Of a stretch of 64,000 nt of DNA, positions 6,664 to 57,816 are shown piece after piece. The notes under the pieces are model-generated. The model worked only from the letters and a program-made list of their open reading frames with translations. It did not search any database and had not been told where the DNA came from. Origin of the DNA: Bacteroidetes bacterium OLB10. Its GTDB lineage: Bacteria > Bacteroidota > Bacteroidia > AKYH767-A > OLB10. Position numbers and translations under genes: made by a program. Where the stretch lies: positions 1 through 64,000 of the forward strand of contig LNBX01000024.1 of the NCBI GenBank assembly GCA_001567275.1, read 5' to 3'. Each line of letters opens with the position of its first letter. Within the stretch, counting starts at the first letter, position 1.

Positions 6664-6691
6664 TTTGGCGCATAAACTGTATTCTTTATAA

Positions 6692-7969: not shown

Positions 7970-8062
7970 GACTTAATAATGAGAAGAAAAAATAGTCTCA
8001 TACAATAAACTTCCACTTATAAATGGAGAAAACATCTGCTTTAAACCTAAACCATAAAATCC

Positions 8063-8070
8063 TATCTTTG
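8063..8070 (+). promoter_or_regulatory. -7 promoter box TATCTTTG before the coiled-coil gene
   Basis: This is an exact TAnnTTTG match, 29 bases before the ATG at 8100. No good -33 TTG was found at the expected distance. Confidence 0.55.
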
Positions 8071-8099
8071 TAAGGTTGAATTTAATAATCTATTAAAAA

Positions 8100-8774
8100 A
8101 TGAAAAAGGTACTCTTAACAGTTTTTGTGAGTGGTTTGTTCTTTACTGCTCATTCACAAAGCATTAATGTGACAGAACAAAATGTATTGTTTTTAAACGG
8201 ACAACATCCTGCACTGGTAACAATGGTGTATAACAATTCCATGAGTGATGTTATGGAGAAATGGAAATCATTTTTGAAATCCTATAAGAATGAAAAAATT
8301 AAAGCAGATAAGAGCGGAGAAATTTTCGGAGATAATGTGCAGATAAAAGACTGGGGAAATAATCCTGTAGATATTTATGCACGTTTTGAAGAAAACAAAG
8401 CTGACCAGTCAGTGAAAGTGATGGCCGCTTTTGATCTTGGAGGAGCCTACCTTTCTTCAGCAGGCGATGCTGCAAAATATTCTTCTGCCGAAGGAATGAT
8501 TAAGAATTTTGCTATAGAAACAACTAAGGGACCATTAGCCGACAAAAAGAAAGAAGCTGAGAAATTGCTTTCACGTATGGAATCTGATAGAGACAGTCAG
8601 GAGAAAAATATAAAATCACTGAAAAGTGATATTGAAAGCTATAAAGACAAAATCAGCAAAGCAGAGAAAGATATTGAAAAAGGTGAAGCAGAACTGAGCA
8701 AAAAGAAATCTGAAATAGAAACACAAAGAACCAATGTTCAGCTAATAAACAGCCAGATTGAAGCAGTAAAATAA
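8100..8774 (+). CDS. Secreted protein with C-terminal coiled coil, unknown function
   Basis: The 224-residue product starts with a clear signal peptide (MKKVLLTVFVSGLFFTAHSQ, cleavage after HS or SQ). Residues about 20-140 form a mixed globular domain containing MEKWKSFLKSYKNEKI and an acidic stretch. Residues about 148-220 are a long Lys/Glu-rich heptad region predicted to form a coiled coil. I do not recognise a named domain. It has its own -7 box and ends 18 bases before rbfA, so rbfA and the methyltransferase may be read from the same promoter. It is probably periplasmic. Confidence 0.7.
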   Translation: MKKVLLTVFVSGLFFTAHSQSINVTEQNVLFLNGQHPALVTMVYNNSMSDVMEKWKSFLKSYKNEKIKADKSGEIFGDNVQIKDWGNNPVDIYARFEENKADQSVKVMAAFDLGGAYLSSAGDAAKYSSAEGMIKNFAIETTKGPLADKKKEAEKLLSRMESDRDSQEKNIKSLKSDIESYKDKISKAEKDIEKGEAELSKKKSEIETQRTNVQLINSQIEAVK

Positions 8775-8792
8775 TCAGTCAACATAAAGAGT

Positions 8793-9158
8793 ATGGACAG
8801 TACACGTCAGCAAAAGATTTCGCGGATGATTCAGAAAGAAATAAGCGAATTATTTCAGCATGAAGGGAAGGATATTTATGGAAATGCTTTTGTTACCGTT
8901 ACAAACGTAAGAGTGACACCTGACCTTGGAGTTGCCTATATCAGGTTAAGTCTTTTCAAGCAAAAAAATGCACAACAGGTTGTTGATGATATGAACAAAC
9001 ACATGCACGATATCAGAAGAAGACTTGGCAACCGTATCAAAAATCAGATCAGGCATATTCCTGAATTAAAGTTTTTCAATGATGAAAGTCTGGACTATGT
9101 AGATCATATGGAACAGTTGTTTAAAGAAATTCATAAAGACGATACAAAAGAAGATTAA
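8793..9158 (+). CDS. rbfA: Ribosome-binding factor A
   Basis: The 121-residue product has the RbfA KH-like fold. It shows STRQQKISRMIQKEISELF, then VTNVRVTPDLGVAYIRLSLF (the VTpDLs..kVyvS signature region), and the helix RRRLGNRIKNQIRHIPELKFFND ending in DESLDYVDHMEQLF. RbfA binds the 30S subunit near helix 1 and 28 of 16S rRNA and helps its maturation and cold growth. Length is normal. It lies 18 bases after the coiled-coil gene and 8 bases before the methyltransferase gene, which suggests one operon. Confidence 0.92.
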   Translation: MDSTRQQKISRMIQKEISELFQHEGKDIYGNAFVTVTNVRVTPDLGVAYIRLSLFKQKNAQQVVDDMNKHMHDIRRRLGNRIKNQIRHIPELKFFNDESLDYVDHMEQLFKEIHKDDTKED

Positions 9159-9166
9159 GCCAAACG

Positions 9167-9976
9167 ATGCATTACGATCCCATCAAACGCTCGCTTGGCG
9201 AAGTGTTTAATAAGACTCCTTTTTTAAGAAAGATTTTTTACCGTTTGCTCGATTTGTTACTCCTGCGGGCATGGCATATCCATAAAGAACTTAAGCCATG
9301 GTTGCGCCAGCATAATCAGGGAGCAGATGTGCTGGATGCAGGGGCAGGATTCGGGCAATATACTTATTGGCTGTCGCGCAAAAACAACAAGCTGAAAATT
9401 TATGCAGTGGATGTGAAGGAAGAGCAAGTACGCGACTGTAATAATTTTTTTAAAGCTATTGGATACAACAACGTATTGTTTGGAGTAGAAGACTTAGTTG
9501 TTTATCAGAAACCGGATACCTATAATCTGATTGTTTGTGTAGATGTGATGGAACACATTCTCGAAGATGAGAAAGTGTTTTCAAACTATGTTGCATCTTT
9601 AAAAAAGGGAGGTATGCTGATTATTTCAACGCCTAGCGACCAGGGTGGCAGCGATGTGCATGAAGGCGGAGATACGTCTTTTATTGAAGAACATGTGCGT
9701 GATGGATATAATATAAAAGATATTGAACAGAAACTTTTAAGAGCAGGTTTCAGCCGTGTAGATGCACGATACAGCTATGGAAGTCCCGGAAAAATTTCAT
9801 GGCGATTGTCAATGAAATATCCCATCTCATTACTCGGAGTATCAAAATTATTTTTTGTTGTATTACCATTTTATTACCTGTTGGTATATCCTATCTGTTA
9901 TGTGCTCAACTATGCTGACACTGCAGGAAATCATCCTACAGGTACAGGACTTATTGTAAAGGCATGGAAAGATTAA
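9167..9976 (+). CDS. Class I SAM-dependent methyltransferase
   Basis: The 269-residue protein has the Rossmann methyltransferase motif I (VLDAGAGFGQYTYWL), an acidic strand-2 end (YAVDVKEEQ), and motif IV-like YNLIVCVDVMEHILEDE, followed by KKGGMLIISTPS. These mark SAM binding of the UbiG/COQ5-like type. A hydrophobic stretch near residues 220-250 (LFFVVLPFYYLLVYPICYVLN) suggests membrane association, so the substrate may be a lipid or an undecaprenyl-linked sugar. It follows rbfA by 8 bases. The substrate is unknown. Confidence 0.8.
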   Translation: MHYDPIKRSLGEVFNKTPFLRKIFYRLLDLLLLRAWHIHKELKPWLRQHNQGADVLDAGAGFGQYTYWLSRKNNKLKIYAVDVKEEQVRDCNNFFKAIGYNNVLFGVEDLVVYQKPDTYNLIVCVDVMEHILEDEKVFSNYVASLKKGGMLIISTPSDQGGSDVHEGGDTSFIEEHVRDGYNIKDIEQKLLRAGFSRVDARYSYGSPGKISWRLSMKYPISLLGVSKLFFVVLPFYYLLVYPICYVLNYADTAGNHPTGTGLIVKAWKD

Positions 9977-10086
9977 GTGATGATCATGCACTTATAAGTG
10001 CAGTTATTACTCTGTTCTTTCCCACTTTGTTAAACATTATAATTTGCACCATTCTTTCATAAGTATTACCAAAATCAAATTACAAA

Positions 10087-13000
10087 ATGAAGTACATTAC
10101 TAATTTTTTCAGAGTATGTGTAATTACTCTGTTTGCTGTTGTAAACGTTAAAGCAGCTGACTCCCGTGGTTTCTGGAAAGATATTTCAGAATCAGAAATA
10201 GCAACTACAGGAGAGCGTTACACCATCCCTTCAAAATTCAGAGCACTGCGACTGGATTTAAATCAAATGAGACAATATTTGTCAGCCGCACCTATGGAGC
10301 CGGCACAAACGGCTAATCTAAAAAATGGTTTGCTGTTTGAAATGCCAATGCCTGATGGCAGTTTTCAGCGCTTTCAGATATTTGAATATGCTATGATGCA
10401 TCCTGATCTGGCTGCTAAATTTCCTTCTATAAAAACGTATACAGGTCAGGGAATTGACGATGCATCAGCATCCATTAAACTCGATGTAACACAATTGGGT
10501 TTTCATGCAATGACCTTGTCACCCAAAGGCAGTGTGTTTATTGATACATATAATAAAAACACAACTACAGAATATATATGCTATGATAAGAAGGACCTGA
10601 TGAGGACATCTTCTTTTACCTGTGAGTTTAATGATCTTACCAACGGGCTTATAAAAGTTCCTGATGCAACAAGTGCTCAGCGTTCCAGTGGTACGCAACT
10701 TAGAACTTATCGTTTGGCAATGGCTTGTACGGGAGAGTATGCAGCGTTTTATGGAGGAACAATTTCAGGTGCCATGGCTGGTATAATAACAACCGTTAAC
10801 CGGGTGAATGGTGTTTATGAAACTGAGTGCAGCATTAGATTGGTGTTGATTGCAAATAATAATCAGATAATTTATACCAATAGCTCAACAGACCCATATA
10901 CCAACAGTAATGGCTCTACAATGCTTGGACAAAATCAAAATAATATAGACAATGTGATAGGTTCAGCTAATTATGATATTGGCCACGTAGTGAGTACAGG
11001 TGGTGGTGGTGTTGCTTATCTCGGAGTGATATGTACTTCGGGAAGTAAAGCCAGAGGAGTAACAGGAAGTTCTGCTCCTACAGGTGATGCGTTTGACATT
11101 GACTATGTAGCTCATGAAATGGGTCATCAGTTTGGAGGTAATCACACCTTTAACAGTACGACAGGAAGTTGTAGTGGGAATCGAGCATCTTCAGCAGCTT
11201 ACGAACCGGGAAGTGGTATTACCATTATGGCTTATGCCGGAATTTGCGGTTCAGATGATCTTGCTCCACATAGCATAGCTTACTTCCACACAAAAAGTTT
11301 TGATGAGATTAATATTTATTCAACTACCGGAAACGGAAACAGCTGTCCTGTAAATACAAGTACAGGAAATAATCCTCCTGTTGTAACAAGTATGGGTAGT
11401 ACATATAGCATACCAATCAGTACACCTTTTGTATTAACAGGTGCAGCTACTGATGCAGACAGCGATCCTATATATTACAGCTGGGAAGAATATGACTTAG
11501 GCCCGGCAGGTGCATGGAATGTACAGTCAACCACAGCGCCACAATTCAGACCTTTTGAACCAACACTTTCACCATCGCGTACATTTCCACAAATGTCGGA
11601 TGTGGTGAACAATACAACTACTGTTGGAGAATTGTTACCCAATCAGGCACGCACATTAAAATTCAGACTCACGGTACGTGACAACAGATCAGGAGGAGGT
11701 GGAGTGATGCATCCTGACACAACTCTCAACATCAGTGTTGTAAACTCAGGAGGCGCTTTTGCTGTAACAGCTCCCAATACTGCAGTGACGTGGGCAGGAG
11801 GAAGCTCTCAAACTGTAACATGGAATGTAAGTGGTACAACAGGAAACGGAATAAACACTGCCAATGTAAAAATTTCATTAAGTACAGATGGAGGTTATAC
11901 TTACCCAACGGTTTTGTTAGCAAGCACACCAAACGATGGCAGCCAGAGCATAACTGTTCCTAACATAGCAACAACTACTGCACGTATAAAAGTTGAAGCT
12001 GTAGGAAATATATTTTTCGATATCAGCAATGTGAATTTTACAATCACACAATCAGTAGGTTTAACAACCATTACAACATCAGCGGTTTCTCCTCTGACTT
12101 ACTGTGCAGGTTCATCAGTTAATGTTTCATTTACAACAGATGCTGCAGCTAATTCAGGAAATATTTTTACTGCTCAACTTTCAAATGCCGCTGGGTCGTT
12201 TTCTAATCCAACAAACATTGGTACTATAAACTCAACTGCAGCAGGAACAATAGCATGTGTTATACCTGCAGGAACTTCTGCCGGAAATGGTTATCGAATA
12301 AGAGTGGTGAGTTCTAATCCAGTAGTAACGGGAAGCGATAACGGATCAAATATTACAATCAGTACAAACCCAACGCCATCCATCAGCGGAACATTAAGTT
12401 TCTGTCAGGGAAGTTCAACAACCCTGAATGCAGGAAGCGGTTACAGCAGTTATCTGTGGTCAACAGGAGCAAACACACAAACAATTAACGTAAACACAGC
12501 AGGAACATTTACAGTTACAGTTACCAATGCAAATGGTTGCAGCGGAAGTGCTTCTGCTACTACAAGTGTAAACGCATTACCGGTTGCCTCAATTACACCT
12601 TCAGGAACAGTTACTACATGTAATACTTCACAATTATTGTCAGCAACAACAGGAGCAGGTTATAACTATCAATGGCGTTTGAACGGAAGTAATATTAATG
12701 GTGCAACAGCAGACACTTATACAGCAACAGCATCGGGAGTATATGATGTAGTTGTTACTGCTAATGGTTGTTCAGCTACATCATCTCAAACAAATTTAAG
12801 TTTAGGAACAGGAACTCCGGTAATTACTACCAATGGCAGCACAACAATCTGTTCAGCATCATCAGTAGTTTTGACAGCACCTGCCGGTGCAAGTGCTTAT
12901 CAATGGTATAGAAATAATGTAGCACTTGCTACCGGTACTGGGCAGAATTATACAGCCAATTCACATGGAACATATTATTGTAATGTAACAGGAAGTTGCT

Positions 13001-14511
13001 CAGGAAACTCAAACTCTATTGTAGTTTCTGTAATCAATAATCCTACTCCGGTAATAAGTTCTACTACACCAAGAACATTTTGCTCCCCAGGTTATGTAGT
13101 GCTTACTGCAAATTCATTTCCCGGGGTAACATATCAATGGCAAAAGAACAGCGTAGATATTCAGGGAGCTACTTCGGGTACTTATACAGCATACGACCCG
13201 GGAAATTATAGTGTAGTTGAAACAGCGAACGGATGCTCTAAAACTGCAAAAGCAAAAGTTTTATCAGCGTCTGTAATTACAGCGCAAATAAGCACGAATG
13301 ACCCAACAACTATATGTGCCATGAACGGAACAGTTTTAATGAATGTAGATAATGTTATACCCGGTTATAGTTATCAATGGCAAAAAGATGGAGTTGCTAT
13401 CAGTGGAGCTACATCTACAAGTTACACAGCAACTTCTTCAGGAAATTATACCTGTCAGGTGAGTGCTTTATGCGGTACTAACATTTCAAATGTAATTGGT
13501 GTTTCAATAGGAACATTTGTTGCTTCAATTCTTCCTGCCGGCACTGTTTATGTTTGCTCTGGAGCAAGTATAGATCTTTATGCGAGTACAGGAACTGGGT
13601 TTACTTATCAGTGGAAATTAAACGGAACAGATATTCAGGGTGCTAATAGTTCTACACTCACCGTAAACACTGCAGGAAATTATTCTGTATATATGACATC
13701 GCCTTGCGGAAATGCACTTTCCAACACAGTTACAGTTAACAGTGCAACCGTGGTTGCATCTATAACACCTGCAGGTACATCCACAATTTGTGCTGCACAG
13801 TTTATACAATTTAGCACACCTGCAGATCCTGCATATACCTACCAGTGGTATCGTAATAATGTTATTATCCCTTCAGGAATAAATGACTCATATACTACAG
13901 GAACCAAAGGAACTTATAAAGTTGTTGTTTCACTTAATGGAATATGCCCTGTTACATCGAATGAAGTTGTGGTTAATGTAATTAATAACCCTACACCGGT
14001 GAATACAGCTTCAGGGCCTTTAACTTTTTGTGATGGAGATTCAGTTACATTAAATACAAATTTCTGGAATGGTGCCTCTTATCAATGGACTAAAAACAGT
14101 GTTGATATTCCCGGAGCAACAGCATTGAGTTATACTGCTACAACTAAAGGTTCGTACAGGGTGAGACAAACAGGCAATGGCTGTTCAAAATTATCGCCAC
14201 CTGCATCTGTTAAAGTAAACTCATGTCGTCTGGCAGCAGATGGAATTACTGAGTTGAACGAAGATGTTTCCGTTACAATTATTCCTAATCCGATAGTAAA
14301 TATTTCTGAAATTGTTGTTGATGGTGATATTACAATTAGCAATGCTCAGTTGGAAGTTTATGACCTGATTGGCAACAAAGTTATTTCCATTAAAAATATT
14401 CAAACCAACCGTTTGAGTTTTGAAAAAGGAAATCTCCGCCCCGGAATTTATATGATGAATTTTGTAAACGGAGATGGTGTTTCTGTGAGCAAACGTTTTG
14501 TAGTTCAGTAA
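10087..14511 (+). CDS. Secreted reprolysin-like metalloprotease with Ig-like repeats and T9SS sorting domain
   Basis: The 1474-residue protein begins with a signal peptide ending near VKAADS, then a propeptide-like region (about 25-200). The catalytic domain carries the HExxHxxGxxH zinc motif with His343, Glu344, His347 and His353 (HEMGHQFGGNH) and a downstream Met-turn (TIMAYAGIC), as in M12B reprolysin-like metzincins. After a cadherin/PKD-like part (about 430-660) come about nine Ig-like modules of 75-90 residues with recurring YQW and GxY/TATSSGNY motifs. The last about 75 residues (IPNPIV... GNKVISI... LRPGIYMMNF...KRFVVQ) are a type A sorting domain of the type IX secretion system, so it should be exported and fixed to the cell surface or released. 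The gene is monocistronic. A role in protein degradation outside the cell is inferred. Confidence 0.9.
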   Translation: MKYITNFFRVCVITLFAVVNVKAADSRGFWKDISESEIATTGERYTIPSKFRALRLDLNQMRQYLSAAPMEPAQTANLKNGLLFEMPMPDGSFQRFQIFEYAMMHPDLAAKFPSIKTYTGQGIDDASASIKLDVTQLGFHAMTLSPKGSVFIDTYNKNTTTEYICYDKKDLMRTSSFTCEFNDLTNGLIKVPDATSAQRSSGTQLRTYRLAMACTGEYAAFYGGTISGAMAGIITTVNRVNGVYETECSIRLVLIANNNQIIYTNSSTDPYTNSNGSTMLGQNQNNIDNVIGSANYDIGHVVSTGGGGVAYLGVICTSGSKARGVTGSSAPTGDAFDIDYVAHEMGHQFGGNHTFNSTTGSCSGNRASSAAYEPGSGITIMAYAGICGSDDLAPHSIAYFHTKSFDEINIYSTTGNGNSCPVNTSTGNNPPVVTSMGSTYSIPISTPFVLTGAATDADSDPIYYSWEEYDLGPAGAWNVQSTTAPQFRPFEPTLSPSRTFPQMSDVVNNTTTVGELLPNQARTLKFRLTVRDNRSGGGGVMHPDTTLNISVVNSGGAFAVTAPNTAVTWAGGSSQTVTWNVSGTTGNGINTANVKISLSTDGGYTYPTVLLASTPNDGSQSITVPNIATTTARIKVEAVGNIFFDISNVNFTITQSVGLTTITTSAVSPLTYCAGSSVNVSFTTDAAANSGNIFTAQLSNAAGSFSNPTNIGTINSTAAGTIACVIPAGTSAGNGYRIRVVSSNPVVTGSDNGSNITISTNPTPSISGTLSFCQGSSTTLNAGSGYSSYLWSTGANTQTINVNTAGTFTVTVTNANGCSGSASATTSVNALPVASITPSGTVTTCNTSQLLSATTGAGYNYQWRLNGSNINGATADTYTATASGVYDVVVTANGCSATSSQTNLSLGTGTPVITTNGSTTICSASSVVLTAPAGASAYQWYRNNVALATGTGQNYTANSHGTYYCNVTGSCSGNSNSIVVSVINNPTPVISSTTPRTFCSPGYVVLTANSFPGVTYQWQKNSVDIQGATSGTYTAYDPGNYSVVETANGCSKTAKAKVLSASVITAQISTNDPTTICAMNGTVLMNVDNVIPGYSYQWQKDGVAISGATSTSYTATSSGNYTCQVSALCGTNISNVIGVSIGTFVASILPAGTVYVCSGASIDLYASTGTGFTYQWKLNGTDIQGANSSTLTVNTAGNYSVYMTSPCGNALSNTVTVNSATVVASITPAGTSTICAAQFIQFSTPADPAYTYQWYRNNVIIPSGINDSYTTGTKGTYKVVVSLNGICPVTSNEVVVNVINNPTPVNTASGPLTFCDGDSVTLNTNFWNGASYQWTKNSVDIPGATALSYTATTKGSYRVRQTGNGCSKLSPPASVKVNSCRLAADGITELNEDVSVTIIPNPIVNISEIVVDGDITISNAQLEVYDLIGNKVISIKNIQTNRLSFEKGNLRPGIYMMNFVNGDGVSVSKRFVVQ

Positions 14512-14524
14512 ATGAGTAAGTTTA

Positions 14525-15202
14525 TTGAAACAACCTGAAATAATATTCGAAGACTATTACCTTGCCGTGCTGCATAAGCCGGCAGGGTTAATGGTCGAGG
14601 ATGATGGATTTGGCAATCCATCAGTTCAGCAGTGGATGCTTCAGCATCTTCAGAAAAAATTTCCTGACCATAAAACTTATTTCATTGCTTTCCCTCATCG
14701 CCTCGACAGGGTGACAGAGGGATTACTGCTGGTGGCAAAAACCAAAGCAGCCCTTACAACTCTGAATAAGCAGTTTGAAAACAAAACAGTAAGGAAAATT
14801 TATCATGCACTTATCCAACAGCCGTTGCGACATGCTTCAGGAACTTTGCGTCATTATCATAAGAAAGATGTCAAACTTAAGAAGGCAATAATATCACTGA
14901 AACCAAAAGAAGGTTTTTCACCCTGTGAATTGAAATATGAAACCGTTGTTTCAGATAAAACGAATTACTTTTTGTTAAAAATTGAATTACTCACAGGGAG
15001 ATATCATCAGATTCGTGCCCAACTTGCATTTGAAAAATCTCCTGTAATTGGTGATGTGGCTTACGGCTCTGATATTGCAAAAGGAAAAAACAGAATTGCT
15101 CTAGCGGCAACTGAATTATTATTTCATCATCCTAAATCAAACGAGCCTATGCTGTTTGAACTGGATTGGCAAAAGATATTTTCAGGATTTTTAAGTAAAT
15201 GA
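14525..15202 (+). CDS. RluA-family 23S/tRNA pseudouridine synthase
   Basis: This 225-residue enzyme has the RluA catalytic motif HRLDRVTEGLLLVAK with Asp61 as the predicted nucleophile, then ENKTVRKIYHALI and the C-terminal TGRYHQIRAQLA motif. It isomerises uridine to pseudouridine in RNA. The N-terminal S4 domain of RluC/RluD is absent, which fits the shorter RluA/TruC-type members. The start is a TTG at 14525; an out-of-frame ATG at 14512 stops after eight codons. It starts only 13 bases after the metalloprotease stop. The exact target nucleotide cannot be told from the sequence. Confidence 0.85.
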   Translation: MKQPEIIFEDYYLAVLHKPAGLMVEDDGFGNPSVQQWMLQHLQKKFPDHKTYFIAFPHRLDRVTEGLLLVAKTKAALTTLNKQFENKTVRKIYHALIQQPLRHASGTLRHYHKKDVKLKKAIISLKPKEGFSPCELKYETVVSDKTNYFLLKIELLTGRYHQIRAQLAFEKSPVIGDVAYGSDIAKGKNRIALAATELLFHHPKSNEPMLFELDWQKIFSGFLSK

Positions 15203-46054: not shown

Positions 46055-47992
46055 ATGGAAACAAAAGCAGGAGATATTCTTAAAACTATTCAATCGCCTT
46101 CAGATTTAAGAAAACTTGCACCGGAAAAACTGCAGCAGGTTTCGGATGAACTAAGACAGTATATTATTGATGTCGTTTCGGTACATGGTGGTCATTTTGC
46201 CGCCAGTCTTGGTGTTGTAGAACTTACCGTTGCACTGCATTACGTGTTCAACACTCCTTACGATCAGCTTGTGTGGGATGTTGGTCATCAGGCTTACGGC
46301 CATAAAATTCTTACAGGAAGACGGGATGTTTTTCATACCAACAGAATCTACAACGGTATCAGCGGTTTTCCAAAACGCAGCGAAAGTGAGTACGATACTT
46401 TTGGTGTAGGTCATAGTTCCACTTCAATTTCAGCTGCATTGGGAATGAGTGTGGCCAGCCGCCTTAAGAATGATAAAAACAGACAACACATTGCAGTAAT
46501 TGGTGATGGTGCCATGACGGCAGGACTTGCCTTTGAAGCATTGAATCACGGAGGTGTGGAAAATACCAATATGATTGTTGTGCTCAACGACAATTGCATG
46601 AGCATTGACCCCAACGTTGGTGCTTTGAAAGAATATTTAACAGGAATTACTACTTCACCAACCTACAACAAGGTGAAAGACGAAGTATGGAAAGCATTGG
46701 GTGTGGTAAGCAAGTTCGGACCTAATGCACAGGTAATCGCTCAGAAAATTGAAAACGCATTTAAATCTGTATTACTCAAACAAAGTAATTTGTTCGAGTC
46801 GCTGCGCTTCAGATATTTCGGGCCTATTGATGGGCATGATGTGGGAAATATGGTAAAAGTGCTTGAAGATTTAAAAAATATTCCGGGTCCTAAAATTTTG
46901 CATTGCCTTACCGTAAAAGGTAAAGGTTTTAAAAAAGCAGAGGAAGATCAGACTAAGTGGCATGCTCCCGGTTTGTTCGATAAAATTTCGGGTGAGATTT
47001 ATAAACCTGCAAACGATAAACCACAGCCTCCGAAATATCAGGATGTGTTTGGACATACTATAGTGGAGCTGGCAGAAAAAAATTCGAAAATAGTAGGTAT
47101 CACTCCTGCCATGCCTTCGGGTTGCTCGCTGAACATTATGATGAAAGCAATGCCCGAAAGAGCATTTGATGTAGGTATAGCCGAGCAACATGCAGTTACT
47201 TTTAGTGCAGGTCTTGCCACACAGGGCATGATACCGTTTTGCAACATTTATTCTTCGTTTATGCAGCGTGGTTATGATCAGGTGATACATGATGTGGCAT
47301 TGCAAAAACTAAATGTGGTTTTTTGTCTGGACAGAGGTGGTCTTGCAGGTGCAGACGGACCAACACATCATGGCGCATTTGACCTTGCTTATATGCGATG
47401 TATTCCCAACATGATTGTAAGTGCACCCATGAACGAAGAGGAATTGCGCAACCTGATGTACACTGCACAGCATGACAATATGGGACCATTCAGCATTCGC
47501 TATCCGAGAGGTAATGGTGTGATGACAGAGTGGCGTACTCCTTTTAAAGCTATTTCAGTAGGCACGGGACGTAAACTAAGAGGCGGAGAACATATTGCAA
47601 TATTAACCATTGGTCATCCCGGAAATTTTGCAGTTGCAGCCTGTGATGAGCTGGCACATGAAAATATTTATCCTGCGCATTACGATTTACGTTTTGTAAA
47701 ACCACTCGATCAGTTGTTGCTGCATGAGGTATTTGCCAACTACAAAAAAATAATCACTGTGGAAGATGGTTGCCTCATGGGTGGTATGGGAAGTGCTGTA
47801 GCCGAGTTTATGATAGATAATAATTACAGTGCAGAAATAATTCGTCTGGGAATTCCGGATAAATTTATTGAACATGGCGAGCAGAGTGAACTGTATAACG
47901 AATGTCATTTTGATAAAGCGGCCATTATGGATACGGTAAGAAAACTCAGCGCATACGTAAGTGAAAAATCACCTCAGAATATTAAAAAATAA
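46055..47992 (+). CDS. dxs: 1-deoxy-D-xylulose-5-phosphate synthase
   Basis: The 645-residue TPP enzyme joins pyruvate and glyceraldehyde-3-phosphate in the first step of the MEP isoprenoid pathway. It shows GGHFAASLGVVELTVALHYVF, DVGHQAYGHKILTGR, the TPP motif GDGAMTAG with LNDNCMSIDPNVGA, DGHDV, and GIAEQHAVTFSAGLA with the catalytic Glu. The C-terminal transketolase domain includes YPRGNG and ITVEDGCLMGGMGSAV. Length is standard. It stands alone with a close -7 box and a hairpin terminator. Confidence 0.97.
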   Translation: METKAGDILKTIQSPSDLRKLAPEKLQQVSDELRQYIIDVVSVHGGHFAASLGVVELTVALHYVFNTPYDQLVWDVGHQAYGHKILTGRRDVFHTNRIYNGISGFPKRSESEYDTFGVGHSSTSISAALGMSVASRLKNDKNRQHIAVIGDGAMTAGLAFEALNHGGVENTNMIVVLNDNCMSIDPNVGALKEYLTGITTSPTYNKVKDEVWKALGVVSKFGPNAQVIAQKIENAFKSVLLKQSNLFESLRFRYFGPIDGHDVGNMVKVLEDLKNIPGPKILHCLTVKGKGFKKAEEDQTKWHAPGLFDKISGEIYKPANDKPQPPKYQDVFGHTIVELAEKNSKIVGITPAMPSGCSLNIMMKAMPERAFDVGIAEQHAVTFSAGLATQGMIPFCNIYSSFMQRGYDQVIHDVALQKLNVVFCLDRGGLAGADGPTHHGAFDLAYMRCIPNMIVSAPMNEEELRNLMYTAQHDNMGPFSIRYPRGNGVMTEWRTPFKAISVGTGRKLRGGEHIAILTIGHPGNFAVAACDELAHENIYPAHYDLRFVKPLDQLLLHEVFANYKKIITVEDGCLMGGMGSAVAEFMIDNNYSAEIIRLGIPDKFIEHGEQSELYNECHFDKAAIMDTVRKLSAYVSEKSPQNIKK

Positions 47993-47994
47993 AA

Positions 47995-48020
47995 AACCCG
48001 GCTCTCTGAACCGGGCTTTT
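47995..48020. terminator. Terminator between dxs and the PKD giant
   Basis: CCCGG (47997-48001) pairs with CCGGG (48011-48015), flanked by an A-run and TTTT, and lies between the convergent stops. It ends 25 bases from the stop of the giant gene. Confidence 0.7.
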
Positions 48021-48045: not shown

Positions 48046-51000
48046 TTACTCATCGACATTAGTTTCTGTAGCATTGCCGGGAACGGTTTTCACTTTTTCC
48101 CATTGACCGGTGCTCCAGTTATATTTTTCTATTTCATAACGCTCTACGCCTGTATCCCATTTATCGTATTTAGTCCAACGTAAGCGACTGCTCTCATTTT
48201 CCCATTTTGCTTTGAGTAAAATGGACGAACTGTTAGAGCTTAACTTACCTGCCATATCACAATCACTCACCACTTCTACTTTGTAGTAATAGTTTTGCTC
48301 ATTGACATTAACATCATAATCATCGTAGCTGGTAACATTGGCTGATACTGTGGCTATGAATGAATAGAACGTGCCTGTGGTATCTGTACTTCTGTAAATG
48401 TTATACTCTTTCACTCTTTCGGGATGAACCTGCGGCTCTGACCATTCTGTAAGTACATATTGATTGTTGACAACAGTAGAACGTACAATGATGGCTTGCT
48501 GATCCTGTAAGCTGTAATCAGGACGTGCAGCAGCAGTATCACTCAGTGAAGTATAGAGTAATCCGCATAAGTCATACGCTTTAATTCGATAGCTGTAATC
48601 ACCCGGGCATAACATCATGGTATCGAGATAACTTAATTGTGTTCCGGGTACGGTTGCAATTACTGCTGTGCTTCCGTTTGCAACTTCTGTTCTCGTAATT
48701 TCATAAGTTGATACAGGGCAACCACCATAAGGAGTCCAGTTAACGTTGATTGAAGTTCCAACTTTATGTGCACTTACGTTAATGGTAGTATGTGCTTTCA
48801 AAACATTTAATGGTAATGCCATTGAACAACGGTCAAGTGTTTGTAACTTGTAAGTGTAAGTGTTGGACAATGTATTCAATCCATTTTCTATATAAGAAGA
48901 CTCAGGATTCATGGATGCATTCGTTGGATTATTGTCTGTATAAACATTTACATAATTACCGCTTGCATTATCCAGTCGCCATAATTTATAGGCACCAAGG
49001 TCAAGAGCAGAGCTGTTTTGCCATTTGATTTCAACCTGAGTATCTGACAACACACTTACGCTGTAAATAGGATCCTGTGGAGGAGGTAATGTGTCGTACA
49101 CCTGTATGAAGTTATTTTTGATTTCAGTGTCGGAACAGCCATTGCTGTTGGTAACAGTTAATGAAACTGTATAGAATCCCGGACTCACCAAAGGAATACT
49201 TACGGATGGTGACGCTGTTGAGAATCCACCTACAGTCCACTGATATACCGGTGAAATTGTGTCGGACGAAAGATTGCTGAAGTCGAAAGTTGTTCCTGCA
49301 CAACCTGCAGTTTGCGATGCACTGAAATTGGCTACCGGACTTAAATTAACCCGTACTGTTTTTGGCAGGTAGAACGTGTCTGTACATCCTGTAGAATTTA
49401 TTGTAACCAGATAAGGCTGATAAATTCCAGGTTGTGTATAGGTGTATTGTGTCACAGCACCGGATGCGGTTTGCCCATTGCCGAAGTACCATACAACAGA
49501 ATCACTGCTGGTAGAAGTAGAGGTAAACGTTACGGTAAACGGAGTACATCCTATAGTATCATTGGTAAATCCATTAGCTACAGGAGTAGATAATACATTC
49601 ACACTGTGAGTTGCAGTATCACTGCATCCACCCGTGTTGGTAACAATGAGTGTTACGTTATAACTTCCTGAATTGACAAACTGCGCTGACGGATTTGAAA
49701 GTGTTGATGTGGAGCCATTATCAAAATTCCAGTTGTAGGTTGCATTCACTTCCTGTAAAGAAGTGTTGTTAAAATTAACCGACAGTGGTGCACAACCTGT
49801 AGTTGCCGATTGTGTAAATGACGCAATAGGTGTTTGATGAATGGTAATTGTTTGAGGCAGTACAAGTGTATCACTGCAACCTGCAGCATTGAATGCAATC
49901 AGCGTTACAGTATAATTTCCTGCAGTATTGTAAGTATGCGAAGGTGTTGCTGCTGATGAAGTAACTCCATCACCAAAGTTCCAAAGATAACCTGTAGCAT
50001 TGGTTGAATTATTGACAAAGGTGCTGAGGTAAGGAGTACAACCAGTAGTATCTGCTGTGGAAGCTATGGCTACAGGAGTTGCATTTACCTGAACTGTCTG
50101 AGAAGTTGTATCCGTACAGCCTGAAGCATTGGTTACCTGAAGTTGTATGGTGTAAGTTCCTGCAGTATTATATGTCACATCAGGACTTGCATCTGTTGAT
50201 GTAGAACCATTTCCGAAATCCCACAGATAAGATGCACCATTGGTATTTGCTGAAGTATTATTTAAGTGTACAGTAAGTGGTGTACATCCTGATGATACCG
50301 ACTTGGTAAACGATGCAACCGGAGTTTGATTTACTTGTATCGTGTATGGGAAAATCAATGTGTCCAGACATCCTGCACCTGATGCAGCAATTAAGGTTAC
50401 AGTATAATTTCCAGGTGTGGTATAAATATGACTTGGAGAAACAGTGGATGACGTAATACCATCACCAAAGTTCCAGCTGTAAGCCGTTGCATTTATTGAG
50501 TTGTTGGTAAACACTGCCGTCATCGGATTACATCCAACTGTATCAGTTGTTGATGCAATAGCTGTTGGCGACAAATTAACCTGTATATTTCTGATGGTGT
50601 CGTCCATACATCCGTTGCTGTTCATCACCTGCAACTGCACAGCATAATATCCTGAATCGGTGTAAATCGTTGATGGATTTTCTATTGGAGATGATGAACC
50701 ATTTCCAAAATTCCAGTTATAAGAAGCACCATTGGTATTTGTTGAAGTGTTTGCGAAATTTACAGTAAGCGGTGTACATCCTGATTGGGAAGATGGACTG
50801 AATGATGCCAGTGGTGATTGCAATGCCTGTATTACATAAGGGAATACAAAAGTGTCTTTGCAACCGTTGGAGTTTGTAGCAATTAGTGTTACTGTGTAAT
50901 TGCCCCCTGTAGTATAAGTATAGGAAGGTGTTGCAGCAGTAGAGGTTGCTCCATTACCAAAGTTCCACAAATAAGATGTTGCATTTAAAGAATTATTGCT

Positions 51001-54000
51001 GAACTGTACAGTGTGAGGTGTACAACCTAAAGTATCTGTTGTAGCAGCAGATGCTGTTGGAAGAGCATAAACAGTTATTGTTTGAGAAATACTATCAACA
51101 CATCCCTGAGGACTTGTTACTGTTAACCATACAGTATAATTACCGGCAGTGGTATATGTTGTAGATGTATTAGAAGATGTTGAAGTTTGTCCGTTACCAA
51201 AATCCCAGAAAGCGGAAGCTCCTGTTGCATTGGAAGAAGTATTGGTAAAGTTAACTGTTAACGGAGCACATCCTGAAGTTTTTGATTTAGTAAACGATGC
51301 TGTCGGAGTCTGATTCACATGTACAGTTGCGGGTACGATAAATGTATCCTTACATCCATTGGAGTTGGTAGCAACCAATGTTGCAGTATAATTTCCTGCT
51401 ACTGTATAAGTATGGGCAGGTACAGAATCCGTTGATGTTGATCCGTCACCAAAATTCCACAGATAAGAAACTGCATTTGTAGAATTGTTAGTAAAGTTCA
51501 CAGTGTAAGGCGTACATCCTGAAGTATCGTTAGTTGCAGCTAAAGCAGTTGGTGATAAGTTGGCACGAACAGTGCGCACAGTATCATCAAAGCAACCATT
51601 ATCATTGGTTACGAGTAAAGTCACATTGTAATAACCTGAGTCGGTGTAAACGGTAGAAGCATTAGGAGTTGTAGCAGTGTTACCGTTACCGAAGTTCCAG
51701 GAGTAAGTCGGATTACTCAGATTGCTCGATACACTTGCAAAGGTTACATTCAGTGGAGTACAACCTACAGTTGGAGTGAAATTAAACCTTGCACTTGGTG
51801 TCTGTTTAACATGAATGCTGTAAGGGAATGTAAATGTATCCTGACAACCGTTGGAATTGGTAGCAATCAGTGTTGCAGTAAAATTACCTGCACCATAGTA
51901 AGTATAAGTCGGATTTGCCTGAGTAGAAGTATTGCCGTTGCCAAAATTCCACAGATAAGAAACTGCATTTGTAGAATTGTTTGTAAAGTTCACAGTGTAA
52001 GGCGTACATCCTGAAGTATCGTTAGTTGCAGCTAAAGCAGTTGGTGATAAGTTGGCACGAACAGTGCGCACTGTATCATCAAAGCAACCATTGTCATTGG
52101 TAACAAGTAAGGTCACATTGTAATATCCTGAGTCGGTGTAAACGGTAGAGGCATTCGGAGTTGTAGCAGTGTTACCGTTACCGAAGTTCCAGGAGTAAGT
52201 CGGATTACTCAGATTGCTCGATACGCTTGCAAAGGTTACATTCAGTGGAGTACAACCTACAGTTGGAGTGAAGTTAAACCTTGCACTTGGTGTCTGTTTA
52301 ACATGAATGCTGTAAGGGAATGTAAATGTATCCTTGCAACCGTTGGAATTGGTAGCAATCAGTGTTGCAGTAAAATTACCTGCACCATAATAAGTGTAAG
52401 TCGGATTTGCCTGAGTAGAAGTATTGCCGTTACCGAAATTCCACAGATAAGAAACAGCATTTGTAGAATTGTTAGTAAAGTTCACAGTGTAAGGCGTACA
52501 TCCTGAAGTGTCGTTAGTTGCAGCCAAAGCAGTTGGTGATAAGTTGGCACGAACAGTGCGCACTGTATCATCAAAACAACCATTGTCATTGGTAACAAGT
52601 AAGGTTACATTGAAATATCCTGAATCTGCATAAACTGTAGAAGCATTAGTAGTTCCGGCAGTATTTCCATTACCAAAGTTCCATGAGTACACCGGATTGC
52701 TGGTATTGGTAGAAGTATTGGTGAATGAAACTGTAAGCGGTGTACAACCTGATGAAGGTGTGAAATTAAATCTTGCACGAGGTGTTTGTTTCACAATAAC
52801 CGGGAAAGGTAACTGGAAAGTATCTTTACATCCTGATGCATTTGAAGTTATTAATGTTACAGTGAAACTTCCTACAGTGTTGTATGTGTGTGATGGACTT
52901 GCCTGAGTTGAAGTAGAGCCGTCACCAAAATTCCACAGATAAGAAGTAGCATTGGTTGACAGATTGGTGAAGTTTGATGTATAAGGGCTGCAACCTGCTG
53001 TATCCGCAGTTGAAAACAATGCAGTTGGAGATAAGTAACTTGTAATGGTTGTTGTAGCAGTATCGCTGCAACCGGCACCATTGGTTACAATTAATGAAAC
53101 CGCAAATTGTCCTGAATCAGCATAGGTAACCTGTGGTGAAGCATCAACTGAAGTTGTACTATTACCAAAATTCCATAAATAAGTTGGATTATTTAAACTG
53201 GTTGAAGTATTATTGAACGATACTGTCAGAGGTGTACATCCTGATGAAGGAGTGTTGGTAAATTGTGCTACAGGAGTTTCTTTTACATTAATATTTGTAG
53301 GTAACCAGAAAGTATCGCTGCAACCATAACTGTTAGTAGCAACCAGATAAACCTGAAACAAACCTGGTGTAGCATAAGTATGAGTTGGCGCTGTAGTAGT
53401 ATCTGTGTTTAATGTCCCTGAAGCAGGATCGCCAAAGTTCCACAAGTAGGAAGTAGCATTGGAGGAATTTTGAGTAAATGAAGCTGTGAATACATTACAG
53501 CCCACCGTATCCTGAGTAGAAGCATTTGCTGTTGGCACAGGATGAACCACAATGGGGTTGTTAAAAATGTAATGCGATGAACACCCAAGTGTGTCACTGG
53601 TAATGAGTGAAACTATATAACTTCCGGTTGAAGAATAGAGGTGTGTTGGATTTTGTAATGTTGAACTGTCACCGTCACCAAAATTCCACAGCCAGAATTG
53701 TGCATTTAGAGAGCTGTCTGTAAATTGTACAAGATTTCCAACGCAACTTTGTAAGCTTGTCAGGTTGAAGTAAGAAGATGTCCCGGGTACATGAAGATAG
53801 TTTACTTTTTTCATTGTATCGCGACAACTTCCATTAATTGCAATAAGCGTTACTGTGTAATCTCCGGGAATGTTATACACATGTGAAGGTGTGGCTGCAA
53901 CTGAAGTTGTACTATCGCCAAAATCCCACAGATAAGAGGTTGCATTCGTAGATAAATTATTAAAGTTTACTAATGCAGGAGCACAAAATGCCACTGTAGG

Positions 54001-57000
54001 AGCATTAAAGTCTGCATGAGGACTTGATATGTTGACTGCATTCGGAACAACAATAGTGTCCTTACATCCTGATGAAAAGGTAGTAATCAGTGTTACGGTA
54101 TAAGAACTGTCGGCAGTGTAAGTATGGCACGGGTTGCGTGTTGTCGAAGTGCTTCCATCACCAAAATTCCATTGCCAAGAAACAGCGGTAGTATCACTTG
54201 AATCTGTAAAACAGATGGTGGCAGGAATACAACCTGCAGAAGAAGCAACTGTAAAGTGTGCTTGTTTGTATTTTATTCCTTCTAACTTCTTAGTGGCAGT
54301 ACATCCATTTGTATCTCTCACCCAAAGTGAAATGCTGTCAGAGGCAGGAGGGGACAGATAAGTGTATGTTGGATTTTGAGTTGAGTCAGTAACCCCATTG
54401 AAAAAATTCCAACCCCATTGTACAGCAGGGGCAGGTCCTGTTAAATCGGTAAGTTGTATGGTAATAGGAAAACACTGACTGTTTTGGGTGAAACTGAAAT
54501 TAGGCTTGGCAACATAAATGCTGATTAATGCCGGATAGGTTACAGAGCGAGAACATGCACCGTTTGTTGCAGTAAGAGTTATGGTATAATCCTTAGGAGT
54601 TGTAAATTTTCTTGATGGGTTGACTGAAGTTGAAAATCCTGTTGATGACGTAGGATCACCAAAATCCCATAAGTATGAAGTGGCACCGGTGGAGGTATTG
54701 GTGAAGTAAACAATTAGTTTATCACAACCTGATGTAGGCCCGTTCACAACAAACGATGGTTGTGGATTGGTGGTAACAACAGTGTCCTGAAAAGTATAAG
54801 AGCATCCATCAATTCCGGTGGCATTTAATGTAACTATAAAATTACCTGCTACATTATAAACGTAAGTGGGCGTTTGAGAAGTGGAAGTTCCTACACCATC
54901 ACCAAAATCCCAGCTGACATTTGTCCATGGCCCACCTGTGAGACCAAACGTAAACGGATCATCACTGCATCCCTCATCTTTATTTACAGTAATAGGATTA
55001 CTTTGTCCCAAGGTAATAACTGTGCTAAGACTTGTCATACATCCTGTGGAGAGTACAATGTTGAGTGATACAGTATAAGTTCCCGGTTGCGCATAAGTAT
55101 GTGATGGAAACTGAGTGGTGTCATGAGGTGTTCCATCACCGAAATCCCAATCCCATTGAACTACATCTAAAGTAGTATCGCTAAAATGTATCAGATAGGG
55201 TGCGCAAGGTGTTGCTTGTACATAGGTGATAGGAGATACTATCATCGGAAAGATTTGTACATAAGCAATTGGATTGAATACCTGAGTACAACCTGCGCCA
55301 TTATTGCCAGCCATAGTAGCCGTTAACGTTACGGTATAAACACCGGCTGAGTCAAACACAAAGGTTGGGTTTGCTTTGTTGCTGGTATCATTAGTTAACC
55401 ATGGAACACCAAAATCCCAATGAAATAAAGTTGCTCCTGTTAATGGGTTGGTAAAAGATACAGGATATGGCTGACAGCCTTCAATCGTATCAGGTACAGT
55501 ATAAACAACAGATGATGCAGCAACTGTTACGGCTGATTTTCTGACTGTATCAACACAACCATCAGCAGAAGTTACTATCAGCTGAACGTAATAATTTCCC
55601 TGTGTTGTATAGGTATGTGTAGGATTTGGAAGAGTTGAAGTGTTGGCAGCACCTGAAGCAGGATCGCCAAAATCCCATAACCAACTTACGCCTCCAAGTG
55701 AACCACTTGAGTTAAAAGAAACAGGTAGAGGAGCACATCCTGACCGGGGAGTAGAATTGTATTTAGCTACAATATCATTTACAGTGATATAATTTATTTT
55801 TTCTTCTATTGTTTCGCAACCATTGGCTGAATAAGCATGAAGTCTTACTGTGTATGTTCCAGCAGCTGTATATGTGGCAGTTGGTGATGCAAGAGTGGAT
55901 GTGGTACCATTACCAAATTCCCATAAATAAGTAGTTGCTCCACTCGAAGCATTATTAAACTGAACCGTGAAAGGACTACATCCTGTTCTTGGATTTGCAT
56001 TAAAAGCAGCAACTGGAGGCTGATCAACAGTGATGATATTGTTTAAAGTTACACCACCATTGCAACCACTGGAGGTTGTGATGAATAACGAAACAGAATA
56101 TGTTCCAGCGGTATTATAAGTATGCGTTGGACTTGCTGCGGTAGAAGTGTTGGCAGCACCTGAAGCAGGGTCACCAAAATTCCATGAATAACTTGTAACA
56201 CCTGTGATAGAAGGAGGAGTGAATTTAACAGTTAACGGTTCACATCCTGCACTTTTGTTCCAGGTAAATGTTGGTGTTAAAGCAGCTCCAATAGAAATAA
56301 GATTATTTACTACAGCAGTATCGCTGCAACCATTTGCATCTTCAACTATAAGGCTAACCGTAAAAGTTCCCTGCGCGCCATAAACGTGAGTGGGATTAGG
56401 AAGTGTTGAAGTGTTTGCAGCACCGGATGATGGCTGACCAAAATTCCATGAATAATTAGTAATACCGGTTGACGATGATGAAAACTGAAACACCTCGTTC
56501 TGATCACACGAACTGGATGGAGTTACTGAAAGCTGAGCATTCGGTTTATCATAAATTCGTATATAATTCAATTTGGTTTTTACGTTACTGCAACCGAAAG
56601 CTGAATATGCAACCAGCTTCACAGTATAAAACCCGGGTACTGAGTAAGTATGACTTGGGTTGGTTTGTGTGGACGAAAACCCATCACCAAAATCCCAAAC
56701 ACATGATGTGTAATCTACAGAGTTGTTGGTGAAGTTAACCGTTAGCGGGCTGCAACCCGATGTTACATTCGAACTGAAGTCTGCCGTAGGAAATGAAACC
56801 ACAGTAATATATGCCGGCATAGTCAGCGTATCTGATTTGCCTGAAACGGAATTATGTGCAATGAGTGTTACTGTGTATGATCCGGGACTCAGATATACGG
56901 TCTGAGGATTCGGTAAAGTGGAAGTATTTCCATTACCAAAATCCCAGAAAAAACTGGTTGCTTGAAGAGAAGTGTTCGAAAAGTGAACAGTCAGAGGAAC

Positions 57001-57141
57001 ACAGCCTTCTGTTGAATCTGCTGCAAACGATGCAGTAGGAATCTGCGCTTTCGACTGTAATGTGCTGCATAACACCAGGAGTGCTGCAACACAAAATGCT
57101 CGAAAATAGCTCTGACATTTTCCGGTCGTTGAGTTTTTCAT
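48046..57141 (-). CDS. Giant secreted PKD-repeat protein (3031 aa) without sorting domain
   Basis: The protein begins with a signal peptide (hydrophobic core FCVAALLVLCSTLQS, cleavage near SKAQ). Residues about 35-2640 hold about 31 PKD domains, each about 83 residues with the motif WxFGxG...S...P.H.Y and the next-unit start GC.PLTV.F. Later comes a degenerate unit and, from about 2680 to the end, fibronectin-III-like domains (WQNSSALDLGAYKLWRLD, YEITRTEVANGST, YNIYRSTD). Proteins of this build normally end with a T9SS or gliding-motility C-terminal domain, but this one stops at NATETNVDE in the middle of the last domain. A nearly identical 492-bp block is repeated within it. It lies 54 bases downstream of a small membrane-anchored gene. 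Adhesin or surface filament is the best guess; PKD repeats bind proteins or sugars. Confidence 0.88.
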   Translation of the reverse strand: MKNSTTGKCQSYFRAFCVAALLVLCSTLQSKAQIPTASFAADSTEGCVPLTVHFSNTSLQATSFFWDFGNGNTSTLPNPQTVYLSPGSYTVTLIAHNSVSGKSDTLTMPAYITVVSFPTADFSSNVTSGCSPLTVNFTNNSVDYTSCVWDFGDGFSSTQTNPSHTYSVPGFYTVKLVAYSAFGCSNVKTKLNYIRIYDKPNAQLSVTPSSSCDQNEVFQFSSSSTGITNYSWNFGQPSSGAANTSTLPNPTHVYGAQGTFTVSLIVEDANGCSDTAVVNNLISIGAALTPTFTWNKSAGCEPLTVKFTPPSITGVTSYSWNFGDPASGAANTSTAASPTHTYNTAGTYSVSLFITTSSGCNGGVTLNNIITVDQPPVAAFNANPRTGCSPFTVQFNNASSGATTYLWEFGNGTTSTLASPTATYTAAGTYTVRLHAYSANGCETIEEKINYITVNDIVAKYNSTPRSGCAPLPVSFNSSGSLGGVSWLWDFGDPASGAANTSTLPNPTHTYTTQGNYYVQLIVTSADGCVDTVRKSAVTVAASSVVYTVPDTIEGCQPYPVSFTNPLTGATLFHWDFGVPWLTNDTSNKANPTFVFDSAGVYTVTLTATMAGNNGAGCTQVFNPIAYVQIFPMIVSPITYVQATPCAPYLIHFSDTTLDVVQWDWDFGDGTPHDTTQFPSHTYAQPGTYTVSLNIVLSTGCMTSLSTVITLGQSNPITVNKDEGCSDDPFTFGLTGGPWTNVSWDFGDGVGTSTSQTPTYVYNVAGNFIVTLNATGIDGCSYTFQDTVVTTNPQPSFVVNGPTSGCDKLIVYFTNTSTGATSYLWDFGDPTSSTGFSTSVNPSRKFTTPKDYTITLTATNGACSRSVTYPALISIYVAKPNFSFTQNSQCFPITIQLTDLTGPAPAVQWGWNFFNGVTDSTQNPTYTYLSPPASDSISLWVRDTNGCTATKKLEGIKYKQAHFTVASSAGCIPATICFTDSSDTTAVSWQWNFGDGSTSTTRNPCHTYTADSSYTVTLITTFSSGCKDTIVVPNAVNISSPHADFNAPTVAFCAPALVNFNNLSTNATSYLWDFGDSTTSVAATPSHVYNIPGDYTVTLIAINGSCRDTMKKVNYLHVPGTSSYFNLTSLQSCVGNLVQFTDSSLNAQFWLWNFGDGDSSTLQNPTHLYSSTGSYIVSLITSDTLGCSSHYIFNNPIVVHPVPTANASTQDTVGCNVFTASFTQNSSNATSYLWNFGDPASGTLNTDTTTAPTHTYATPGLFQVYLVATNSYGCSDTFWLPTNINVKETPVAQFTNTPSSGCTPLTVSFNNTSTSLNNPTYLWNFGNSTTSVDASPQVTYADSGQFAVSLIVTNGAGCSDTATTTITSYLSPTALFSTADTAGCSPYTSNFTNLSTNATSYLWNFGDGSTSTQASPSHTYNTVGSFTVTLITSNASGCKDTFQLPFPVIVKQTPRARFNFTPSSGCTPLTVSFTNTSTNTSNPVYSWNFGNGNTAGTTNASTVYADSGYFNVTLLVTNDNGCFDDTVRTVRANLSPTALAATNDTSGCTPYTVNFTNNSTNAVSYLWNFGNGNTSTQANPTYTYYGAGNFTATLIATNSNGCKDTFTFPYSIHVKQTPSARFNFTPTVGCTPLNVTFASVSSNLSNPTYSWNFGNGNTATTPNASTVYTDSGYYNVTLLVTNDNGCFDDTVRTVRANLSPTALAATNDTSGCTPYTVNFTNNSTNAVSYLWNFGNGNTSTQANPTYTYYGAGNFTATLIATNSNGCQDTFTFPYSIHVKQTPSARFNFTPTVGCTPLNVTFASVSSNLSNPTYSWNFGNGNTATTPNASTVYTDSGYYNVTLLVTNDNGCFDDTVRTVRANLSPTALAATNDTSGCTPYTVNFTNNSTNAVSYLWNFGDGSTSTDSVPAHTYTVAGNYTATLVATNSNGCKDTFIVPATVHVNQTPTASFTKSKTSGCAPLTVNFTNTSSNATGASAFWDFGNGQTSTSSNTSTTYTTAGNYTVWLTVTSPQGCVDSISQTITVYALPTASAATTDTLGCTPHTVQFSNNSLNATSYLWNFGNGATSTAATPSYTYTTGGNYTVTLIATNSNGCKDTFVFPYVIQALQSPLASFSPSSQSGCTPLTVNFANTSTNTNGASYNWNFGNGSSSPIENPSTIYTDSGYYAVQLQVMNSNGCMDDTIRNIQVNLSPTAIASTTDTVGCNPMTAVFTNNSINATAYSWNFGDGITSSTVSPSHIYTTPGNYTVTLIAASGAGCLDTLIFPYTIQVNQTPVASFTKSVSSGCTPLTVHLNNTSANTNGASYLWDFGNGSTSTDASPDVTYNTAGTYTIQLQVTNASGCTDTTSQTVQVNATPVAIASTADTTGCTPYLSTFVNNSTNATGYLWNFGDGVTSSAATPSHTYNTAGNYTVTLIAFNAAGCSDTLVLPQTITIHQTPIASFTQSATTGCAPLSVNFNNTSLQEVNATYNWNFDNGSTSTLSNPSAQFVNSGSYNVTLIVTNTGGCSDTATHSVNVLSTPVANGFTNDTIGCTPFTVTFTSTSTSSDSVVWYFGNGQTASGAVTQYTYTQPGIYQPYLVTINSTGCTDTFYLPKTVRVNLSPVANFSASQTAGCAGTTFDFSNLSSDTISPVYQWTVGGFSTASPSVSIPLVSPGFYTVSLTVTNSNGCSDTEIKNNFIQVYDTLPPPQDPIYSVSVLSDTQVEIKWQNSSALDLGAYKLWRLDNASGNYVNVYTDNNPTNASMNPESSYIENGLNTLSNTYTYKLQTLDRCSMALPLNVLKAHTTINVSAHKVGTSINVNWTPYGGCPVSTYEITRTEVANGSTAVIATVPGTQLSYLDTMMLCPGDYSYRIKAYDLCGLLYTSLSDTAAARPDYSLQDQQAIIVRSTVVNNQYVLTEWSEPQVHPERVKEYNIYRSTDTTGTFYSFIATVSANVTSYDDYDVNVNEQNYYYKVEVVSDCDMAGKLSSNSSSILLKAKWENESSRLRWTKYDKWDTGVERYEIEKYNWSTGQWEKVKTVPGNATETNVDE
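51440..52610 (-). repeat. 492-bp near-identical tandem repeat, about 2.3 copies, in the PKD gene
   Basis: Plus-strand sequence near 51789 recurs at 52281, and sequence near 51482 recurs at 51974 and 52466, always 492 bases apart with only scattered differences. The unit encodes two PKD domains (164 residues). Other PKD units in the gene differ far more at DNA level, so this block was duplicated recently. Confidence 0.85.
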
Positions 57142-57195: not shown

Positions 57196-57816
57196 CTACT
57201 GTTTTCGCAGTTCATCCGACTTTTTGCCGGCTGCGTAATTTGAATTTGGATCATAACTCGAATCCATATTGATTACGGTGTTGGTAGCACTGTAATATTG
57301 TGAACCATCACGCGCAATTTTTTTAACACGATAAAAAGCATATCCGTTTGGAGGAGTTTGGTCCATCCATGAATAAAATAATTCAACAGCTGTTCCTAAT
57401 CCTTCTTTAATACCAACTGATTCATAAACTTTGCCATCTACTGATCGCTCTACAATATATAAACAATCTGCAGCTTCATTTTTAGCTGTCCAGTTAAGGA
57501 ATACCTTTCCGGAGTTGTATATAGTAGTATAGTTGGCTATGGTACCATTGGCACCTGCATCTGCCATCACAACAGGTTGTGTGGACACTGCCTGGCCAAC
57601 TGCAGATCTGATACTAATCATCATCAGAAGAAAAATAATTGCCTGAACGAAGAACAGGAATTTAATAGCCGATCCTTTTATACCATCGCGGTTGTAATAT
57701 CTGCGCGGTTTTGAATACATCGCGAAGCGATTTTGTCTGACCATTTTATAAAACTCCATTGAGTTCATGGTATCCATTGTTGTATCTTCCATATCGTTGT
57801 AATTTTTAATATGCAT
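57196..57816 (-). CDS. Membrane-anchored small protein with Fn3-like domain, upstream of the PKD giant
   Basis: The 206-residue product has a charged N-terminus of about 50 residues (YKMVRQNRFAMYSKPRRYYNRD), a membrane segment at about 52-72 (FLFFVQAIIFLLMMISIRSAVGQA), and an outer part of about 130 residues with VFLNWTAKNEAADCLYIVERSVDGK, a fibronectin-III-like pattern also seen at the end of the giant protein. The long N-terminal segment before the hydrophobic part is unusual for a signal peptide; a later in-frame ATG (57792) is possible. The gene ends 54 bases before the giant, on the same strand, and is likely its operon partner. I do not recognise a named family. Confidence 0.6.
   Translation of the reverse strand: MHIKNYNDMEDTTMDTMNSMEFYKMVRQNRFAMYSKPRRYYNRDGIKGSAIKFLFFVQAIIFLLMMISIRSAVGQAVSTQPVVMADAGANGTIANYTTIYNSGKVFLNWTAKNEAADCLYIVERSVDGKVYESVGIKEGLGTAVELFYSWMDQTPPNGYAFYRVKKIARDGSQYYSATNTVINMDSSYDPNSNYAAGKKSDELRKQ

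Follow-up and report, generated by a model that had tools for sequence, protein, structure and literature searches.

A giant PKD/FN3 protein of Bacteroidota predicted to end within an FN3 domain, and a small partner proposed to supply the remaining strands and a type IX sorting domain in trans

The giant gene and its end point

The window analysed here (the whole stretch of 64,000 nucleotides) encodes a giant secreted repeat protein that converges on dxs. The features at this locus are listed below with the evidence for each.

48046..57141, reverse strand: giant PKD/FN3 secreted protein, 3031 aa, without a sorting domain (ORF, translation, CTD model search)
57046..57141, reverse strand: signal peptide region of the giant (MKNSTTGKCQSYFRAFCVAALLVLCSTLQSKA|Q) (by eye from the translation)
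48217..48489, reverse strand: last complete FN3 domain, with F strand, preceding the half domain (AlphaFold2 strands 59-133; FN3-tandem matches)
48049..48225, reverse strand: half FN3 domain, strands A-B-C-C'-E only, with a family-wide conserved end (orthologue tails, alignment, AlphaFold2)
48046..48060, reverse strand: split point, ..NVDE-stop, in the E-F loop (junction column in the concatenated-half alignment)
47992..48020, no strand assigned: terminator-like hairpin between the giant and the convergent dxs (sequence)
46055..47992, forward strand: dxs, convergent with the giant only in the own genus, and outside the system (ORF, relatives' loci)
57196..57816, reverse strand: FN3-like secreted protein, 206 aa, without a sorting domain, whose position just upstream of the giant is conserved in relatives

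The giant starts with a Sec-type signal peptide, contains about 31 PKD stretches together with a few FN3-like domains, and stops at the TAA at 48046-48048. Signal peptides of the giant and of the small partner described below were assigned by eye from the sequence. We observed no match of the giant to the type A or type B model of the type IX (T9SS) sorting domain (CTD), in agreement with the original prediction that such a domain was lacking. A cut about halfway through the last FN3-like domain had also been proposed. We ran AlphaFold2 on the last 205 residues of the giant with 18 orthologues, and the final domain was predicted to consist of five of the seven strands (model residues 150-155, 158-163, 175-182, 187-195 and 200-204; block pLDDT mostly 73-93), which bears this out. 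The preceding FN3 domain has an F strand too in the same model (residues 126-133), and the best Foldseek matches of the tail were FN3 tandems, such as titin A77-A78 (E about 8e-4). The last FN3 chain of the giant therefore falls short of the seven-strand A-B-C-C'-E-F-G set, with F and G located on the partner. The model places the end of the giant in the E-F loop of its last FN3 domain, with F, G and a sorting domain absent.

The stop had been described as lying within 25 bases of a terminator hairpin shared with dxs, and exactly 25 bases separate it from the hairpin stem; the end of dxs is 53 bp away. We compared both sides of this junction in relatives, as had been suggested, and found a constant end and a differing neighbour. 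When the last 384 residues were used as a query, 30 tails from 60 relatives (98 to 45% identical) all ended in the same column, and three congeners (98, 92 and 81% identical) ended at the same residue as the giant. Overall, 58 distinct orthologous tails from about 13 families stopped at one structural point, an agreement well beyond what chance would give. In 55 of the 58, the stop came 15-19 residues, most often 17, after the conserved Trp of strand C'. Downstream of the giant lies dxs in the own genus and, in other genera, a sensor-kinase-like membrane protein followed by gpmI (L053-L056, L058). Because the downstream gene varies in this way, the end of the giant is no accident of the dxs junction.

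A deletion, frameshift or assembly error that lost the end would make the giant a truncated, pseudogene-like protein. The mid-domain cut with no CTD after it fits such a loss, and the giant of one congener (G001) has a frame break elsewhere. Against it stands the end shared by all 58 orthologues in about 13 families with differing downstream genes: the truncation is not private to one genome or clade. The deletion raised in the original prediction, which was to be given up if orthologues all stopped at the same point, is thus highly improbable, and the comparisons indicate that the stop of the giant is not damage. Readthrough or programmed frameshifting would also give a conserved stop position, but it can be dismissed as next to impossible, since only the 53 bp before the end of dxs are available in the window and no frame past the stop carries F-G or CTD sequence in the window or at 29 other loci.

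The giant of the 98%-identical congener is read as two overlapping frames (L050, G001:C9; oriented 5833-10731 and 10676-14683). The break falls within near-identical PKD repeats and is either a frameshift or an assembly error.

The small partner protein and its fused homologues

Architecture was common to 51 distinct partner sequences: a signal peptide followed, after about 5-10 residues, by FN3 strands F and G and then a complete type B T9SS CTD. The proteins are ~145-170 aa long, the mature N-terminus lies about 5-10 residues ahead of the F-strand aromatic, and the sequence after the linker reads, for example, YRVTAFKKGNNKILSQSNTVEITPGFTLYIPDAFTPN... The genome of the window has a single partner gene (G000:C31:23948-24391, 148 aa), on a contig other than that of the giant. 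Its product exceeded the cut-offs of both CHU_C (70 bits) and TIGR04131 (58.6 bits). If a T9SS type B substrate is taken as a protein with a C-terminal TIGR04131/CHU_C CTD on the same chain, the partner belongs to the class and the giant does not. The only PDB sequence match of the partner CTD was GhpA of Aureispira (9flp). AlphaFold2 run on the partner alone from two sequences gave a pLDDT of 41.

The partner gene occupies different loci in different lineages. In the own family, it stands alone, adjoining lpxD-lpxC-lpxA and an ABC gene. At six other loci (L059, L060, L062, L067, L111, L117), the giant or its operon follows directly after the partner gene. In one genome (G322), the partner gene lies directly downstream of the giant; judged from gene order, giant-then-partner is the arrangement to be expected soon after fission. 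LamG proteins adjoining the partner were considered as further truncated clients and rejected, as they have a C-terminal sorting-like end of their own.

The original prediction had also offered a second explanation, in which the giant leaves the cell by another way with the help of its upstream neighbour. Exit with a partner agrees in outline with the model given below. The upstream gene (P0002, 57196-57816) is not the CTD carrier, as its product has no CTD and, by eye, a complete FN3. This protein forms triads with the partner and the giant in two genomes (G041 and G046), and it may act as a chaperone or as a third component of the system. Ahead of its hydrophobic stretch is a conserved segment of unusual length, FYKxxRxNRxxMYSKPxRYxNRD.

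A search for CTD-bearing orthologues, also proposed at the outset, yielded fused homologues. In 20 of 20 test tails (19 from partner-less genomes and one fused paralogue in a genome also holding the pair), translation continued in the same frame for 93 or more residues, taking in F, G and the CTD. About ten further fused homologues were found, one of them a 789-aa protein that the own genome encodes (L001). We concatenated the giant tail with the mature partner for 47 genome pairs and aligned these with 29 fused proteins. The junction mapped to the E-F loop, and for 43 of the 47 pairs it occupied one alignment column or the column before; a strand was neither missing nor duplicated. The Pfam fn3 model gave no usable signal on the halves or on the concatenation, and the fused control was weak too. 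The alignment indicates that the giant and the small partner correspond to two halves of what is one chain in related proteins.

Most fused FN3 domains have a cysteine in each of strands F and G (YCYR...SNExC), and the two probably form a disulfide. Both of these are missing from the split partners.

We assessed the co-occurrence of the two genes in two genome sets. Both were present in 36 of 61 relatives and neither in 22; the truncated giant alone was found in 2 and the partner alone in 1, and these three exceptions are MAGs that are 79-85% complete. Among the matches listed for 296 class genomes (requested completeness at least 90%; very divergent members may be absent from the counts), the short-frame partner and the truncated giant occurred in the identical 29 genomes. 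The giants of 28 of these read as intact truncated ends, and that of G122 has internal stops. In this genome the giant tail with its internal stop codons (L197, G122:C3) lies about 6 kb from an intact partner, reflecting decay or an assembly error. Short CTD frames in three other genomes were rejected as partners: those in G194 and G299 are contig-edge pieces of fused proteins, and that in G117 is an unrelated contig-edge PKD protein. All Bacteroidota records with titles were metagenome-assembled or from uncultured bacteria.

Fisher values for the co-occurrence take no account of phylogeny. A single branch of the tail-region tree parts split from fused proteins; the split state thus arose once and, given this single origin, most of the co-occurrence is shared descent. 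Only switches within families count as independent support. In six families (f1, f5, f9, f25, f37 and f61), some genomes had both genes and others neither; f61 includes a split member (G140) and a fused member (G217).

Proposed export in trans and competing explanations

The conserved position of the split, the make-up of the partner, its co-occurrence and operon linkage with the giant, the fused homologues and the T9SS genes, all read from sequence, lead us to consider it likely that strand complementation restores the divided FN3 in trans, coupling the giant both to export through the T9SS and to anchoring at the cell surface. The giant and the partner would cross separately to the periplasm by Sec, where physical binding would occur, the F-G hairpin of the partner completing the open FN3 of the giant by strand complementation. 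The CTD, attached non-covalently, would then dock on the SprA translocon and a PorP/SprF-type carrier. Once docked, it would draw the giant out CTD-first and then anchor it at the surface, where the giant may act as an adhesin.

This order of export is modelled on Flavobacterium, where the pore of SprA binds the CTD and the substrate, borne by a carrier protein, emerges CTD-first (PMC10994853). For type B substrates the carriers are PorP/SprF proteins, which also anchor the substrates (PMC9143113; PMC10202324). The genome of the window has a SprA match of 507 bits and seven PorP/SprF proteins above cut-off. A PorP/SprF gene usually clusters with a type B substrate gene (PMC10202324). We observed no such gene (PF11751) on the contig of the partner (C31), and the sole PF11751 match on the contig of the giant lies about 105 kb from it.

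The same genome encodes two truncated giants (C24 and C46) versus one partner, which suggests a shared adaptor. We lean towards the view that the one small protein serves as an exchangeable T9SS sorting and anchoring adaptor for two or more giants. If so, one adaptor gene controls the export or anchoring of several giants.

Of the competing explanations, the one that fares best has the giant as a scaffold that stays in the periplasm or envelope without ever being exported and the small CTD protein as an independent type B substrate, their co-occurrence being due to shared descent. The single origin of the split clade and the unlinked genes in the own genome are compatible with this reading. 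Covariation between the halves is also weak (46 of the top 80 column pairs vs 37.6 expected, barely above a control domain). However, the strands missing from the giant are exactly those on the partner, the two genes adjoin in many genomes, both were gained or lost jointly within at least six families, and fused homologues of both halves exist. We regard this scaffold reading as unlikely.

Less probable still, and in our judgement very unlikely, is that the five-strand end is a new sorting domain read directly by the T9SS, with the partner otherwise employed, for example in capping. The C-terminus of the giant is conserved in sequence and position, and type C CTDs provide a precedent for unusual CTDs (PMC10202324). 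However, the end of the giant aligns as the first half of the ordinary FN3 that precedes the CTD in fused proteins, and a new sorting domain would leave the F-G half of the partner without a role. Complementation in trans, with the CTD supplied by the partner, remains the reading that we prefer.

Relation to known systems

Like SprB-SprF of Flavobacterium johnsoniae and PG1035-PorP of Porphyromonas gingivalis, the system described here has a giant Sec-exported repeat protein and T9SS genes in the genome. Its CTD is of the CHU_C/TIGR04131 family, as in type B substrates, of which the fused homologues are ordinary members. Unlike in SprB-SprF and PG1035-PorP, the CTD is on another polypeptide, the giant ends in a half FN3, and no PorP/SprF gene was found on the contig of the partner.

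The arrangement also recalls donor-strand complementation in chaperone-usher pili and in the Mfa/FimA-type fimbriae of Bacteroidota, where an Ig-like domain without strands can be completed by another protein. It differs in that an FN3 lacks two strands (F and G), to be supplied by the proposed complementation, and in that the donor would be the CTD carrier, neither a chaperone nor the next subunit, with no usher. In hitchhiker export, a protein is carried by a partner bearing the signal, as is the case for some Tat substrates. Here too, a signal-less protein would be borne by a signal-bearing one, whereas the step concerned is the outer-membrane step of the T9SS and one structural domain is divided between two genes. 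By analogy, the proposed arrangement resembles donor-strand complementation combined with hitchhiker export, and may belong to either class. The grappling hook protein GhpA of Aureispira (PDB 9flp) is comparable in that it comes from Bacteroidota, is of giant size and has a type B-like C-terminus, but it keeps its CTD in cis on one 5898-aa chain.

Our searches of the open-access literature turned up no report of a CTD acting in trans or of an FN3 domain divided in this way in the T9SS. By definition, a T9SS substrate carries its CTD in cis, and searches for this domain are the basis of substrate lists. If the proposed model is correct, a widespread class of giants with the CTD in trans escapes every such list. 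Type B CTDs alone have been reported to be insufficient, with over 200 residues needed (PMC10202324), and a natural FN3 split with a fixed cut point offers a way to probe what portion of a type B substrate has to be visible to the translocon. The split FN3 could also serve as a handle for controlling the export of giant adhesins.

We also scanned viral contigs for a natural fused FN3-CTD; only other CTD proteins matched. Type B T9SS CTD proteins were encoded at 119 places in IMG/VR viral contigs (L234-L313, e.g. L236, L241, L247). Some were small (182-222 aa), with one Ig-like domain followed by the CTD and, in L236, an apparent signal peptide. Judging from their sequences, these proteins are possibly phage-borne T9SS substrates.
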